Origin: Kribbella flavida DSM 17836 | GTDB lineage: Bacteria; Actinomycetota; Actinomycetes; Propionibacteriales; Kribbellaceae | Direction of reading: 5' to 3' | Length of the DNA: 64,000 nt | Assembly: GCF_000024345.1 (NCBI RefSeq) | Contig: NC_013729.1 | Coordinates: forward strand, 5,766,001-5,830,000 | Shown: in pieces, positions 28,692 to 34,841 of the stretch | Position numbering within the stretch: the stretch's first letter is position 1 | Layout of the letters: each line of letters opens with the position of its first letter | The notes under the pieces: model-generated | Databases searched by the model: none | Told to the model about the DNA's origin: nothing | The model's input: only the letters and a program-made list of their open reading frames with translations | Translations under genes and position numbers: made by a program

Positions 28692-28802
28692 GGGTGATCG
28701 GGATCCCTTCTCTGGACATCTGTCAGCGCTGATGCTATCCGGGCGGGCCGCGGGAACCGCGCTCGTCGTCCACCGCCGGGTGCGGCCGGGCGTCCTGGCC
28801 CC

Positions 28803-28808
28803 TATCTT
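28803..28808 (+). promoter_or_regulatory. -10 hexamer TATCTT, leaderless Nudix start
   Basis: TATCTT, six bases, then ATG 28815. No Shine-Dalgarno sequence precedes the ATG, supporting a leaderless transcript. Confidence 0.5.
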
Positions 28809-28814
28809 TTGTGC

Positions 28815-29219
28815 ATGGAGCCGGAACGGGTCGACTGTGTGGGTGCGCTCGTGTACGACGAGCAACGGCGGCTGCTGGTGGTCCGACGAGCCAACGAGCC
28901 GGGCCGGGGCCTGTGGTCGTTGCCGGGTGGACGGGTGGAGCCGGGTGAGGACGACCCGGCCGCGGTGGCCCGCGAGGTGGCCGAGGAGACCGGGCTCGAG
29001 GTGGTCGTCGGCGACCTGGTCGGCGAGGTCGAGCGGGAGGGCCCGCGGAACCGGCTGTACGTGATCCGCGACTACCAGGCGCAGGCGGTCGGCGGCAGCC
29101 TGACGGCCGGGGACGACGCGTCGGACGCCCGCTTCGTCAGCCGGGAGGAGTTCGAGAACCTGCCTACCACGACGCTGCTCGCCTCCACCCTCGCGCAGTG
29201 GAACGCCCTGCCGGGCTGA
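28815..29219 (+). CDS. Nudix hydrolase
   Basis: A 134-residue hydrolase of nucleoside diphosphates linked to X. The Nudix box runs from GGRVEPGEDD through AREVAEETGLEV (about residues 38-60) with all metal-binding glutamates. The preceding LWSLPGG is typical of MutT-like proteins. The substrate is unknown. A single gene, divergent from the PHP-marC operon. Confidence 0.92.
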   Translation: MEPERVDCVGALVYDEQRRLLVVRRANEPGRGLWSLPGGRVEPGEDDPAAVAREVAEETGLEVVVGDLVGEVEREGPRNRLYVIRDYQAQAVGGSLTAGDDASDARFVSREEFENLPTTTLLASTLAQWNALPG

Positions 29220-29249
29220 CACCCGGAAGTGAGCGACGAGCCGTTCGGT

Positions 29250-30215
29250 TCAGTTGAGCGGGGGCGCGTCCAGGGCGATGAACGCGTAGACGGTCGTGCC
29301 GTGCTCGTCGGTGTGGGTGCGGACGAGATCGGCCATCTGGTTGACCAGCAGCAGGCCGCGACCGTTCAACTGTCCCGGGTCGGCCGGGATCCTGCCCGCC
29401 AGCGGGTCGGTCAGCCGTCCGCTGTCGCTGACCTCGCAGACCAGGTGGTTGGCGTCGCGCCAGATCCGCAGCTCACCTTCGCCGTCGGCATGGCGGATGC
29501 TGTTCGCCACCAGTTCGGTGGCGATCAGTTGCAGGTCGGCCATCCGGTCGCCGAGCAGGCCCAGGCGTTCGGCGTGCTCGCCGGCGAACTTGCGGGCGTC
29601 CCGCAGCCGGATCGACTTGCTGATCGGCAGAACCGCGACGTCCCCGGGCTTGTCGGGTTCGTCCAGCGGTTCGTTGTACCGGGCGACGATCGCCTCCGGC
29701 GCGTACTTGTCGCTCGGGTAGCTCCGGCCGCCTTCCCAGACGACGGGGTGCGTGAGCAGGGCGTCGTCCACGACTCGGTCGTCCAGCGCGGACAGGTCGT
29801 ACGGGCAGACGATCGTGACGTCGCGGCCGGCGAATGCCAGGTTGATCAGTGCCTCGTGCTGGGCGCAGGCCGGGTACTCGAGCTCGCTGCGGCCGGCCCA
29901 GATCGGCTCTCCGATGATGCGGACGTGCGTGTCGGCGTGGTCGTCGGCGAATCGGCGCAGCACGGTGGGAATGATCCGCCCCGGGTTGCGGCCGGCCTGC
30001 TCCATGTTGATCAAGGTCACGTCCGCGGCGGCGTCGCCGAGTGCCTCGCGCAGCAGCCGGAGCCTCGACTCGGGCACTGCGACCGCCACCGGCTGGCCCA
30101 GGGCGAGCCCCTCGGTGATGAACTGCACGAGGCTGTCCGTGTACTCCTGGTCGGTGCGGTAGAACAGCGCCGGATGGACGAAACCAGTGGTCGGTCTGGT
30201 GGCAGTCGTGGTCAT
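29250..30215 (-). CDS. MEDS sensor fused to anti-sigma-type kinase domain
   Basis: A 321-residue protein. The N-terminal MEDS (DcmR-type sensory) domain spans about residues 10-180 (HPALFYRTDQEYTDSLVQFITEGLALGQPV). The C-terminal GHKL ATPase of the RsbW type has the N-box ELVANSIRHA, DSGRLTDP and GRGLLLVNQMAD. Proteins of this type bind and phosphorylate STAS antagonists. It is the last gene of the signalling operon; its ATG overlaps the previous stop (ATGA) and has GGAGG upstream. It probably links a small-molecule signal to partner switching. Confidence 0.88.
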   Translation of the reverse strand: MTTTATRPTTGFVHPALFYRTDQEYTDSLVQFITEGLALGQPVAVAVPESRLRLLREALGDAAADVTLINMEQAGRNPGRIIPTVLRRFADDHADTHVRIIGEPIWAGRSELEYPACAQHEALINLAFAGRDVTIVCPYDLSALDDRVVDDALLTHPVVWEGGRSYPSDKYAPEAIVARYNEPLDEPDKPGDVAVLPISKSIRLRDARKFAGEHAERLGLLGDRMADLQLIATELVANSIRHADGEGELRIWRDANHLVCEVSDSGRLTDPLAGRIPADPGQLNGRGLLLVNQMADLVRTHTDEHGTTVYAFIALDAPPLN

Positions 30216-31048
30216 GCGGCCTCCACACGGACGCGGGGAAGGTGCAGCAGCTCCACCAACCGGGAGGCTCCCGGCCACGACGTCCGAAGTACGACGTCGA
30301 CACCGCGGTCGGCGGCGTGCCTGGACAGGCGCACCAGACCGGCATGGTCGACAAAAGTCAGTCCGGTGCCGTCGAGGACCACCTGGTCGCTCGCGGCTTC
30401 CAGTTGTGCCCGCTCCAGCGCCAACGCGAACAGGTCGTCGCTCAGCACGTCGAGCTCACCGGTGAGCGCAGGGGCTCCGCCGGGGGCGGCGTGCAGGCGG
30501 AAGTCGACGACCGCGTTGGTGTTGGGATGCAGGCAGGCGAGCTGCGCGATCGCCGTGTCCGCCAGCTGGTTGCGGTCGTAGGCGCACAGCGCGGAGAACG
30601 GGCGATCGGCCATGTACCGGTCGATCAGGTACTCGTACCGGGCGAAGGCGTCCAGCTGCTCCGCGCTCAGCACCAGGCGGGTGGCCTCCGCGGCGACCCG
30701 CAGGCCGGCGAAACCGTCGGCCAGCGCCTGGTCGGTCGCGGCGGCGTAGGTCTCGACCTGGTCCTCGGGCCGGATCACGGATCCCACCGGATAGGTCGTG
30801 TCCAGCGATGCCACCCGGGCAGCGCCGGACCGTAACGCCCAATCCATCCCGTCGATGCCACGCAGCTCCTCGGTCAGCTCCGAGACATCGCCCGGAGCGG
30901 TGTACCAGACGCGGTACCCGCTCGCGAGGCCGTCAACCAGGAACTCGCGAACCCGCTCCTGGAAGTCCGCGGGCGCGTCGTACTGCCAGCACACGTGATC
31001 GTGGGCGCCCAGCCCGCGCACGTGGTCGACCAGTCCAGACGCTCGCAT
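30212..31048 (-). CDS. MEDS sensor fused to STAS domain
   Basis: A 278-residue protein. The MEDS domain (about 1-175) has the typical GLGAHDHVCWQYDAPADFQERVREFLVDGLASG opening (read in pieces), and the C-terminal STAS-like domain (about 190-278) includes VLDGTGLTFVDHAGLVRLSRHA. The phosphorylatable serine of classical antagonists is replaced in the sequence FVDHAGL, so it may be a constitutive or non-phosphorylated antagonist. The inner ATG at 31048 is preferred; the longer ORF would overlap the upstream gene by 29 bases. Confidence 0.82.
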   Translation of the reverse strand: MRASGLVDHVRGLGAHDHVCWQYDAPADFQERVREFLVDGLASGYRVWYTAPGDVSELTEELRGIDGMDWALRSGAARVASLDTTYPVGSVIRPEDQVETYAAATDQALADGFAGLRVAAEATRLVLSAEQLDAFARYEYLIDRYMADRPFSALCAYDRNQLADTAIAQLACLHPNTNAVVDFRLHAAPGGAPALTGELDVLSDDLFALALERAQLEAASDQVVLDGTGLTFVDHAGLVRLSRHAADRGVDVVLRTSWPGASRLVELLHLPRVRVEAA

Positions 31049-31058
31049 GGCGGCGAGT

Positions 31059-33527
31059 CTACCGATGCTTTGCCGGTTGCGTGACAATCTCCGCCCACAC
31101 CACCTTGCCGTCGGGGGTACTGCGGGTCCCCCAGCGCGCCGCGAACGCGTTCACCAGGTACAGACCGCGGTGCTGCTCCTCCTCGACGGACGGCTCGAAC
31201 AGGCGGGGCGTGGTGGCGCCGTGATCGGCCACGTCGACGGTCAACCGGGTGCCGTCGTGGTGCAGCCGGAGGGTTCCGGGCTCACCGGTGTGACGCACCG
31301 CGTTGCTGACCAGCTCGACGGTCACCGTGAGTGCGCGGTCGATCACGTCGGCCAGGCCCCACTCCGTCAACCTGTCGCGGACGAACGCCCGGGCCTGCGC
31401 GCCGATCGCCGGGTCCGCGGTCAGCGGCAGTGAGGCCGTCCGGCGGTAACCCTCGAGGTGGTGCACGTGCAGCAGCGCCACGTCGTCGTCGTGCTCGTGA
31501 TCGGTGAGCCGGTCGATCAACTGGTCACAGGCCGCCTGCAGATCCAGCTCGCCGGACAGCTCCTCCAGCCCCGCCACGAGGGCTTTCAGGCCGTCAACGA
31601 CCGTACGCCGGCGGCTCTCCACCAGCCCGTCCGTGGAGAGCGTCAGCCGAGCCCCCGGGGGGAACGCGGTCTGCTGCTGCAGGAACGTGTCGCCGACACC
31701 GAGCGGCATGCCCAGCCCGTCCCCGATCAGCCGGGCCGGCTCACCGGGCGCCATCAGGACGGCCGGCAGGTGGCCGGCGTTGGCGATCGTCAGCGACTGG
31801 TCCACCGGGTCGTGCACGGCGTACAGGCAGGTGACGAAGGTGGCGCCGGCGGTCGTCTCCGCCAGGTGGGAGACGTGCTGCAGCAGGTCGGCGGGCGGCA
31901 GGTCGAGCAGCGCGTACGAGCGCACCGCCATCCGGATCTGGCCCATCACCGAGGCCGCGGTGACGCCCCGGCCGACGACGTCGCCGATCACGAACGCGGT
32001 CCGGCCGGCCGGCAGCTCGATCACGTCGAACCAGTCCCCGCCGACCTCGGAGCCGGTCGCGGCCGGCAGGTAGCGCGAGGCGATCTCCAGGTGGGCGATG
32101 CGCGGCACGGTCGGCAGCATGCTGCTGGCCAGCTCGGTCGCCATCCGCCGCTGCCGGGCGAACAGCCGGGCGTTGTCCAGCGCGATCGCGGCGTACCCGG
32201 CGATGCCCTCGGCCAGCTGCTCGTGCCGGGCGGTGAACCGGCCGATCTCGGAGTGGCCGAAGAAGAACCCGCCGAGCACCTCCTGCGACGACGGCGAGAT
32301 CACCGACACCGCCAGGTAGCTGTGCACCGGCAGGTGCCCCGCGGGCATCCCGTAGTACGGCGCGTTGCGGCCGTACCGCGGGTCCATGGTGATGTCGTCG
32401 GAGCGCACCGTGCCGTGCCCGTCGAAGGTGGCCGAGAAGACCGCCGTGTTGCGCGGCATCGGGAACTGGGCGAAGGCCTCGCGCGGCACGCCGGCCAGGG
32501 TGTAGAGCGTGTACGACTCGCCGTACTGGTTCACCAGGTTGTAGAAGAACGCCCCGAACTCCGCGCCGGTGGCCTTCGTCGCGGCGTCGGTGGCGTCCTG
32601 GACGAGGGTGTCCAGGTCCAGCTGCGCGGTCAGCCGGCGCCCGACCACCTGCAACGTGTCCACCAGGGCCGCCTCGGCCTGCAACCGCCGGACGGCGTCC
32701 TCCAGCTCGGCTGCCTGGGTGCGCGACGACTCCTCCAGCACCCGCAGGTGCTCGCGCAGGGCGTCGCGCTGTGCCTCCAGCCCGAGCCGGCCCGAACCGT
32801 TGTGAGCGTGGGTCAGCAAGCCGGCCCGGACGCTGACGGCCACCGGCTGGAACAGGTCCGCCGCCTCGACCGGGATGGTCGCCCGGGAGAACATCACCAC
32901 GCAGAACACGTTGCCGCCGGGCAGCACCCCGCCGAAGCCCAGCACCGAAGCGATGTCGTGGTCGCGGACGAAGTCCTGGTCCGGGAGCCGCTCGCTGCCG
33001 ACCGCCTGCTGGACGTGGAACACCCCGAACCGCTCGTGCTCGGCGCGGACCGACCCGGCCACCACGTCCTCGGCCCGCAGACCCAGCGCGGACACCAGAG
33101 CCGAGATCAGCGGCGCCGTGGTCACCGTCTCGGTCGAGATCAGCGGGACGACCCGGTGCACGCGGGAGGCGGTCCGGTCGTTCCAGACCGGGCGCCGGCC
33201 CGCGCTCGCGTCCAGGGTCAGGCAACGCAGGTCCGGGTCGGCCACGCCCTCCGTGCGGCTCCGCGCGATCCGCTGCTGCTCGTCGTCCAGGTCGGCGAAC
33301 CGCCGGGTGGACAGCAGCCGGACCACCTCGAGGACCGGCTCACCGTTCTCGTCGAGGAAACCGTCCCGCAGATGCCGGACCACGCCCTCCGCCGCCGGCA
33401 CAAACCCGTCGGCGGCCTCCGCGAGCGTCCGCAGCTCGGCGGCCATCCGGACCATGTCCGACAGACCGAAGGCGGCGAAGTCGTAGCCACCCCGCGGCTG
33501 CTCGGCCACGGACAGCTCGGCGATCAC
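31059..33527 (-). CDS. GAF-SpoIIE phosphatase-GHKL kinase hybrid
   Basis: An 822-residue multi-domain protein. Residues about 1-270 form an N-terminal region of ANTAR/GAF-like composition. A coiled coil (about 255-295) precedes a GAF domain (about 300-450). The PP2C SpoIIE phosphatase (about 475-680) has [24 protein letters not shown] and STDGLVESR with metal-binding aspartates. An RsbW-like ATPase (about 695-822) has [11 protein letters not shown] and GLYLVNAFA. It can both dephosphorylate and phosphorylate STAS partners, a single-chain switch. GTG overlaps the upstream STAS stop by four bases. Confidence 0.9.
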
Positions 33528-33880
33528 GACCGGCCGGAGCCGCCGTGCACGCTGGGAACCTCGGCGTGGATCTCCAGCAGGCGGTGCAGCATCGTCACGG
33601 TGATCGCGGCCTCGACCTGCGGGCGCAGCCGGGCCAGCGACAACGCGCCGCCCGCCGCGGCGGCGGTCTTGTGCAGACGCACCAGCGCGCTCAGCGCACT
33701 GGAGTCGCAGAAGGTGAGGTCCACCAGGTCGAGCACCAGTGACCGTCCCGACGCCGCGAGCGGCTCGACGACCTCGAGCAGCTCCGGGGTCGTCCCGAAG
33801 TCCAGTTCACCGGTGACCTTCGCCACCACATCCGCACCGCGATCGTCGACGTCGATCGTCAGCAACAACTCGTCACTCAC
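33524..33880 (-). CDS. STAS-domain anti-sigma factor antagonist
   Basis: A 118-residue RsbV/SpoIIAA-like protein. The signature [26 protein letters not shown] carries the serines that a GHKL kinase would phosphorylate. It is the first gene of the four-gene operon and the obvious substrate of the phosphatase-kinase encoded next. The GTG start has AAGGGG upstream. No sigma factor is encoded in the operon, so the target lies elsewhere. Confidence 0.9.
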
Positions 33881-34040
33881 CGTGGCCCCTTAACCCTGTC
33901 CAGCAACTGCGCCTGTTCGGGCGGCAGGGCTGTCCGGCAGCGCGAAGTGCACGCCGTCGCCTCCCCATCACCGCGGGCGCGGACACAATACCTGGCACCG
34001 TCCGGCACCGCAGCCACGACCCGCGAACCCGGGACCAGGC

Positions 34041-34046
34041 GATACT
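34041..34046 (+). promoter_or_regulatory. -10-like hexamer GATACT, leaderless start
   Basis: GATACT, six bases, then ATG 34053, with no ribosome binding site. The first base departs from TAnnnT, so confidence is lower. Confidence 0.4.
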
Positions 34047-34052
34047 CCGACG

Positions 34053-34841
34053 ATGGACAAGAACGGACCGGTGCGGGCGATCGAGCACAACACCGCCGAA
34101 CTGCTGCTGGCGATGGGCCGGGCCGGCGGCGGGACGCAGCGTGACGATCCTGGCCTGCGCTGGACCCTCGGCGGTTCGCCGATCGACTACCACAACGCCG
34201 TCGTCGCCGCCGACCTGACGGCGGAGGAGGCCGACCGGGCGATCGCCGAGTCGCTGCGCCTGCTGCGCACGTACGGCGTCCCCGGCAGCTGGCACGTCGG
34301 ACCGTCGACGCGGCCGCGCGACCTCGGTGACCGGCTGCTGGCCGCGGGCTTCACCTACGGCGGCAGCGAACCCGGGATGGCCGTCGAGCCGGCCGTCCTG
34401 AGTGACGAACCGACCGGTCCCGGCAATCTCCGCATCGCCCGGGTGCTGGACGAGCAGAGCCTGGCGGTCTGGGCGGCGACGCTCGGCCGCGGCTTCGGCG
34501 AGGGGCCGAAGGAGGCGGACTGGGTCGCCTCGGTGTACCGGCACGAGGGCTTCGACGATCCCTGGCGGCACTACCTCGGCACGCTCGACGGCGTACCGGT
34601 GGCGACGGCAACCGTCTTCCTCACCCCGGGCGTCGCCGGCGTCTACTTCGTGATGACCGTGCCCGAGGCCCGGCGGCAGGGCATCGGCGCCGCGATCACC
34701 CGGTACGCCGTCCGCGCGGCCGCCGACGTCGCGCAGTACGCCGTGCTCGGCTCCTCGCCGGCCGGTCGGTCGGTCTACGAGAGCCTCGGCTTCCGGCAGT
34801 ACTGCACGATCGACCTCTACGAGTGGGCGCCGGACAGTTGA
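34053..34841 (+). CDS. GNAT family N-acetyltransferase
   Basis: A 262-residue acetyltransferase. The C-terminal GNAT fold (about 125-260) has the beta4 strand GVYFVMTVPEARRQGIGAAITR, with the acetyl-CoA loop RRQGIG, and the motif B region VLGSSPAGRSVYESLGF. The N-terminal half (about 1-110) is a degenerate second domain of the kind seen in double-GNAT proteins. The substrate is unknown. It is convergent with the histidine phosphatase gene, with stops touching at 34841/34842. Confidence 0.85.
   Translation: MDKNGPVRAIEHNTAELLLAMGRAGGGTQRDDPGLRWTLGGSPIDYHNAVVAADLTAEEADRAIAESLRLLRTYGVPGSWHVGPSTRPRDLGDRLLAAGFTYGGSEPGMAVEPAVLSDEPTGPGNLRIARVLDEQSLAVWAATLGRGFGEGPKEADWVASVYRHEGFDDPWRHYLGTLDGVPVATATVFLTPGVAGVYFVMTVPEARRQGIGAAITRYAVRAAADVAQYAVLGSSPAGRSVYESLGFRQYCTIDLYEWAPDS

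Follow-up and report, generated by a model that had tools for sequence, protein, structure and literature searches.

A four-gene operon of Kribbella flavida with a predicted partner-switching gene set and a MEDS-STAS protein that lacks the phosphorylatable serine

The stretch analyzed here (the window) comprises 64,000 nucleotides of the Kribbella flavida DSM 17836 genome (NC_013729.1, forward-strand positions 5,766,001 to 5,830,000). Between positions 29250 and 33880 of the window an operon of four head-to-tail genes lies on the minus strand in the order A-B-C-D. Gene A (33524..33880, 118 aa) encodes a single-domain STAS anti-sigma antagonist with a phosphorylatable serine, Ser60, in the motif FCDSSAL. 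Gene B (31059..33527, 822 aa) encodes a protein in which an unnamed N-terminal domain is joined to a GAF domain, a SpoIIE/PP2C phosphatase and a HATPase kinase domain. Gene C (30212..31048, 278 aa, ATG at 31048) encodes a MEDS-STAS protein whose STAS domain is RsbB-type and has no phosphorylatable serine, and gene D (29250..30215, 321 aa, ATG at 30215) encodes a MEDS-kinase of the RsbA family of anti-sigma factors. The end of A and the start of B overlap by 4 nt (GTGA, 33524..33527), as do those of C and D (ATGA, 30212..30215); B and C are separated by 10 nt and do not overlap. An earlier reading of this DNA, made without database searches (the sequence-only reading), had described four head-to-tail genes with 4-base overlaps between the first and second and between the third and fourth, and our coordinates agree with it. 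Its inventory of two kinases, one phosphatase and two STAS domains, one of them without the serine, also holds, C being the serine-less one (His235) and A the one that keeps Ser60. A promoter scan of 28700-34200 found no sigma-70-type site, and no terminator-like site was found on the minus strand inside 29250-33880. The overlaps and the lack of an internal terminator-like site suggest that the four genes are co-expressed, neither scan being proof of a single transcript.

The STAS domain of A scored 61.9 bits against a cut-off of 22.6 in Pfam and 65.4 bits against 53.45 with TIGR00377 of NCBIfam. The phosphorylatable serine (codon 33703-33701) is also present in the A orthologues at the loci L043, of a second Kribbella genome, and L064, of a Nocardia. 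In B, the SpoIIE phosphatase domain (31461..32009; PF07228, 147.1 bits against 25) shows the motifs GGDWFD, GDVVGRG, TDGLVE and DDVAL in all three orthologues, and these correspond to the metal-binding motifs of SpoIIE/PP2C phosphatases. The GAF domain (32175..32621; PF13185, 48.4 bits against 28.6) lies upstream of the phosphatase, and the serine-kinase-like HATPase domain (31092..31421; PF13581, 33.2 bits against 27.4) downstream. The latter keeps its N-box, and the first glycine of its G2 box is a histidine (HRGL) in all three orthologues, whereas D has GRGL. Since HRGL or HRGI is also seen in other proteins with the same N-terminal domain (L172, L178, L179), this box is no clear sign that the kinase domain of B is inactive. 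Wherever the complete set occurs, in three genomes, A and B retain the residues of a serine/phosphatase switch.

The N-terminal domain of B, of about 240 residues (approximately residues 1-245, 32793..33527), was overlooked in the sequence-only reading and had no match among the Pfam or NCBIfam families. A structure model of it was discarded, as it was built from two sequences and reached a pLDDT of 38. Relatives of the domain were found in 11 of 394 genomes of the class, our own included, and in the nine loci that were read the domain is joined to SpoIIE in one protein, in some cases also with GAF and kinase domains.

Gene D belongs to the RsbA family NF041045, which it matched over residues 12-312 with 394.1 bits against a curated cut-off of 210. 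Its HATPase domain (29286-29609, Pfam) has the intact boxes expected of a GHKL anti-sigma kinase: the N-box residues Glu234 and Asn238 are invariant both in 20 diverse and in 31 closer sequences, as is Gly287, and Gly266 is invariant in the 31 closer ones. With the STAS antagonist A and the phosphatase B, this supports the prediction that the operon contains a partner-switching gene set, and the locus as a whole is real and for the most part accounted for by known families. The MEDS domains of C (30524..31000; 153.2 bits) and D (29745-30176; 124.6 bits) both pass the gathering score of PF14417 (29.8 bits), and the STAS domain of C (30245..30466) gave a STAS_2 match of 26.5 bits, below the cut-off of 29.2. 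An AlphaFold2 model of C, built from 24 sequences, had a mean pLDDT of 94.7 and a pTM of 0.90. Fold searches with this model took in residues 1-180, the MEDS part, which matched FlaH (Z 15.3, rmsd 3.0 over 162 residues) and KaiC (Z 14.2, rmsd 2.9 over 164 residues). From residue 183 on, we read the model as showing the order of strands and helices expected of a STAS domain. A search of solved structures by sequence gave no match to D at E 0.1, and the best one to C was a Thermotoga STAS protein (E 0.7).

Members of the MEDS/DcmR family (PF14417) include the transcription regulator DcmR, and a small hydrocarbon-type ligand has been suggested for MEDS; here the domain is fused with STAS in one protein and with an anti-sigma-type kinase in the other. 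The sequence-only reading had spoken of duplicated MEDS sensors with a shared ligand. Two MEDS domains are indeed present, but they are 23% identical to each other, and in a tree of 44 C/D pairs those of C and those of D fall on the two sides of one branch (96/80), with one D row (L021) placed on a long branch at the base of the C side; a local duplication is ruled out by these results. Because of the two-sided split, the MEDS domains of C and D appear to be old partners and not the products of a recent duplication. C-type and other MEDS domains both keep the residues H, G, R, E, C, Y and H, and no Walker A motif was found in the 55 C-type or the 103 other MEDS sequences, the KaiC/FlaH-like fold of the C model notwithstanding. 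One site differs, being H-x-C in 47 of the 55 C-type domains and H-x-A in 96 of the 103 others. A shared ligand is therefore possible, as H, E, C, Y and H are kept on both sides, but the two differ at this site and their binding may not be identical. The third MEDS protein of the K. flavida genome is another MEDS-kinase (L148:4436-5359, near genome position 5383995), and it has no STAS, sigma or SpoIIE neighbor by the models used.

The usual explanation of partner switching is that a single serine of a STAS domain becomes phosphorylated. In C this position is occupied by His235 (codon 30346-30344), at the start of a helix in the model, and in A by the serine. Neither Ser nor Thr was found there in any of the 31 MEDS-STAS proteins retrieved from the class with C as query, nor in any of the 57 MEDS-STAS proteins of the combined loci, our own being included in both counts. 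The combined loci gave 126 STAS sequences out of 145 aligned once identical ones were removed. Among them, Ser/Thr is absent from all 44 MEDS-fused STAS encoded directly upstream of a MEDS-kinase, from 36 of the 38 unfused STAS in the same place and from all 13 MEDS-STAS located elsewhere, while 30 of the 31 other STAS of the same loci keep it. A census that took the MEDS domain as its starting point (58 proteins from 56 stretches, leaving out four places with below-cut-off MEDS matches and the three of our own genome) gave the same picture: Ser/Thr was absent from its four MEDS-STAS proteins (three at places already counted) and from its four unfused STAS beside a MEDS-kinase, and present in eight of the nine remaining STAS. 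The residue found instead was His in 28 of the 44 fused and Val in 34 of the 38 unfused STAS directly upstream of a MEDS-kinase. In a STAS tree (70 hand-picked rows, 108 columns) the serine-less sequences, fused or not, fell on one side of a branch (99/99), and the unfused ones, mostly from Streptomyces, formed one group (97/89) among the fused ones.

Thus the serine noted as missing by the sequence-only reading is truly missing, although its absence is not peculiar to C; by sequence it is a property of the MEDS-STAS/RsbB-type lineage. A one-off decay of C was considered and is ruled out by the family-wide absence of the serine and by His235, which is invariant in all 24 aligned MEDS-STAS sequences, our own included, together with 30 other residues. 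C also agrees with the RsbB type in being a STAS protein without Ser/Thr encoded directly upstream of RsbA, and it groups with the unfused Streptomyces STAS. The Streptomyces form of RsbB has no further domain; C has MEDS and is therefore classed as a MEDS-bearing RsbB variant. We infer the identities of D as RsbA and of C as MEDS-bearing RsbB from the NCBIfam name and the gene order shared with Streptomyces coelicolor. In general terms, a STAS protein encoded directly upstream of an RsbA-type MEDS-kinase would in nearly every case be devoid of a phosphorylatable serine (80 of the 82 cases read), and the loci concerned come from Streptomycetaceae, Pseudonocardiaceae, Nocardiaceae and Nocardioidaceae. 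This generalization was not found in the open-licence literature searched, where, by title, there was also no paper on MEDS-STAS or MEDS-kinase pairs or on a role of MEDS in anti-sigma control. It would make the Streptomyces RsbB an instance of a testable rule, and it points to MEDS as a possible replacement input for phosphorylation.

A comparable system is known from S. coelicolor. Lee et al. reportedly found in 2004 that RsbB of this species has no phosphorylatable serine and that disruption of rsbB gave no phenotype. According to PMC8346170, RsbA and not RsbB regulates SigB in the rsbB-rsbA-sigB operon, RsbB taking no part in SigB control, and a separate phospho-switched RsbV (SCO7325) activates SigB. 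The two arrangements are alike in having an upstream RsbV-like STAS followed by the RsbA kinase, along with a separate phospho-switched RsbV; they differ in that here the RsbB-type STAS carries MEDS, A and the phosphatase B belong to the operon itself, and there is no linked sigma gene. Because of that report on RsbB, the serine-less STAS may be dispensable, at least in S. coelicolor, and C could by extension be a structural subunit or a decayed leftover, its STAS domain doing nothing more than stabilize D or its MEDS domain while A does all the switching. The S. coelicolor report is the strongest point against a regulatory role of C, and the weak STAS scores of C are in line with it. We nevertheless consider this explanation distinctly unlikely: with His235 and 30 other residues invariant in 24 sequences and a replacement residue typical of each lineage, C does not look decayed, and the invariant histidine and the lineage-typical residues are the strongest points for a regulatory role.

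The arrangement of the C and D genes is more than chance, as the pair recurs across the class and the complete set is present in two further genomes. Named D relatives were taken as the best 80 of at least 589 matches to a six-sequence query, a sample that leans to close ones. In 61 of these 80 a STAS gene lies directly upstream, 24 times a MEDS-STAS and 37 times a plain STAS, and in all 24 MEDS-STAS genes the stop codon reads ATGA or GTGA. With C as query, 21 of the 31 MEDS-STAS genes have a co-directional MEDS-kinase gene in their flanks, which were read over about 1.5 kb. The MEDS census, by the models used, comprised 36 MEDS-kinases, four MEDS-STAS proteins (two of them with an adjoining MEDS-kinase) and 18 proteins that are neither.

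The complete A-D set was found in three genomes: our own, one other Kribbella (G024) and Nocardia sp. NRRL S-836 (L064), whose operon is 57-72% identical to ours. Conservation of the operon in relatives, proposed as a check in the sequence-only reading, is thus confirmed for two further genomes and, as the C-D pair, across the class; within the genus C is present in 2 of 38 Kribbella genomes. A D-like match occurs in all 38, the next best after the two operon-bearing genomes being 36% identical. The second Kribbella locus (L043) shares the six tested flanking genes with our own locus, and none of these six was found at L064. The corresponding site was read in eight (L153-L160) of the 36 Kribbella genomes that have no C; in all eight, A to D are absent and the flanks are conserved, with a gap between the NUDIX and GNAT genes of less than 300 bp in five and of about 1.7 kb in three. 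In K. flavida the operon is a 4.8 kb cassette between these two genes. Because of its presence in two of 38 genomes, the empty sites and the different flanks at L064, the operon behaves as an accessory cassette.

We looked for the sigma factor that such a switch could control. The genome has 38 matches to the SigBFG model and none of them lies in the window, so that the sequence-only reading was correct in finding no sigma factor. No STAS, MEDS or SpoIIE gene was found within stretches of 8-8.5 kb around the five strongest matches (three of them over the curated cut-off), and one of these five genes adjoins a weak HATPase match. Likewise, no SigBFG gene was found within up to 8 kb on each side of the 24 named loci with a MEDS-STAS upstream of a MEDS-kinase. 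An adjacent sigB gene, a feature of Streptomyces that is not part of the NF041045 model, is thus absent here and in all 24 of those loci, and MEDS-STAS/MEDS-kinase loci usually have no sigma gene linked to them. Seven Streptomyces loci show the gene order STAS, MEDS-kinase, SigBFG, as in the rsbB-rsbA-sigB operon of S. coelicolor, and the phosphosite of the STAS is Val in all seven; six were found by the distance rule and the seventh is L119, where a stop-to-stop frame hid the gene. In the MEDS census, a SigBFG gene is linked in 4 of the 36 loci with a MEDS-kinase.

A sigma gene that comes and goes with the operon was also sought over the 38 Kribbella genomes with four of the five SigBFG genes (the fifth, L006, excepted), and none did so. 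One of the four, G000:C1:5606160, is present in all 38 genomes with 90-96% identity, and the other three gave no close matches confined to the two operon-bearing genomes. G000:C1:5606160 is closest (46-52%) to the Streptomyces sigma factors of RsbA loci; as the tree places it with another clade (91/84), we regard it only as a candidate target. Most simply, the operon would encode an accessory switch for a sigma factor that is already resident in the genome. The output could instead be an enzyme or another protein controlled through A, an explanation with which the lack of a sigma gene in the locus and of any tested one that tracks the operon would agree; PMC8256260 reviews STAS-only proteins whose targets are different or unknown. 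The linkage of the D family to SigB-type genes in Streptomyces and in four of the 36 census loci with MEDS-kinases argues against it, and we consider it very improbable. At one further locus, L211, a MEDS protein without a recognized second domain is followed directly by a SigBFG-type sigma gene, which is possibly another MEDS route to a sigma factor.

From these data we infer the interactions, the phosphotransfers, the role of MEDS and the kind of target in the following scheme, in which one RsbA kinase, D, is served by two antagonists, A being phospho-switched and reset by B, and C being phosphorylation-proof and tuned by MEDS. D, and perhaps also the kinase domain of B, would phosphorylate A, which would then be released. 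The phosphatase of B, under the control of its N-terminal and GAF domains, would dephosphorylate A, and in that form A would sequester D and thereby free a sigma factor whose gene lies elsewhere. C would probably be produced beside D through translational coupling and offers no serine for phosphorylation; it is expected to bind D directly, with a contact between the two MEDS domains or a MEDS ligand, rather than phosphorylation, setting the tightness of binding. We regard this scheme as the best reading of the operon, and as about as likely as not. Several observations weigh against it. The complete set is rare, being confined to three genomes, and none of the four SigBFG genes tested tracks it. 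The pairing of C with D is not general: a directly upstream STAS gene is missing from 19 of the 80 named D relatives, no MEDS-kinase accompanies 10 of the 31 MEDS-STAS genes over the roughly 1.5 kb read on their flanks (five of the ten have a plain kinase and five neither), and the stretches read around 34 of the 36 census MEDS-kinases contain no MEDS-STAS. The serine is present in two STAS adjoining a MEDS-kinase (L060, L072), the S. coelicolor RsbB is reportedly without part in SigB control, and A may belong to B alone, as B has its own kinase domain.

This last point leads to the alternative of two separate switches on one transcript that exchange no partners, A and B being a self-contained module like a split Rv1364c and C and D an independent, MEDS-controlled pair. 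Rv1364c, as described in PMC10950880, joins PAS, PP2C, kinase and STAS domains and acts on its own STAS serine, and the A-B half of our operon resembles such a protein cut in two; here, however, the STAS is the product of a separate gene, and B has a GAF domain and, by Pfam, no PAS domain. The 4-nt overlaps join A to B and C to D but not B to C. C-D pairs occur without A and B in most of the loci read, and no MEDS gene was found in the nine loci with a B-type N-terminal domain, two of them (L178, L179) having a STAS gene beside the B-like gene. The four genes are nevertheless together in three genomes, at L064 with other flanks, and C has no serine, so that C and D alone would be without a serine phospho-switch. 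The HRGL box could mean that B needs another kinase for A, a weak point as the relatives with its N-terminal domain have similar boxes. On the whole we find two independent switches doubtful.

The scheme with two antagonists of one kinase has a parallel in the mycobacterial SigF system (UsfX/RsbW1, RsfA, RsfB; Rv1364c). As described in PMC10950880, a single anti-sigma factor there answers to two antagonists, of which RsfB is phospho-switched and RsfA independent of phosphorylation, and there is also the phosphatase-kinase-STAS protein. RsfA differs from C in being redox-controlled through cysteines and in not being a MEDS fusion, and Rv1364c differs from A and B in being one polypeptide with a PAS domain. 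The Bacillus systems RsbV/RsbW/RsbU-RsbP and SpoIIAA/SpoIIAB/SpoIIE likewise combine a STAS antagonist, a GHKL anti-sigma kinase and a PP2C phosphatase, and their sigma gene is linked; they are not known to have a MEDS domain or a serine-less second antagonist next to the kinase. In a broader and more tentative form of our scheme, MEDS-STAS/MEDS-kinase pairs could be a widespread ligand-gated partner switch independent of phosphorylation. The STAS would have lost its phosphorylatable serine, replaced in this clade by an invariant histidine, and a KaiC-like MEDS heteromer would determine whether C holds the anti-sigma kinase or leaves it free; A and B would add a classical phospho-switch on the same kinase and so make a two-input gate. 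As it brings together both types of antagonist and a phosphatase, the operon in the window is a compact test case. In three genomes of one genus (L023, L025 and L027), met in a scan that scored at most six candidates per genome, a serine-less MEDS-STAS precedes a kinase whose STAS fusion partner carries the serine, which by sequence are the same two types of antagonist in another arrangement.

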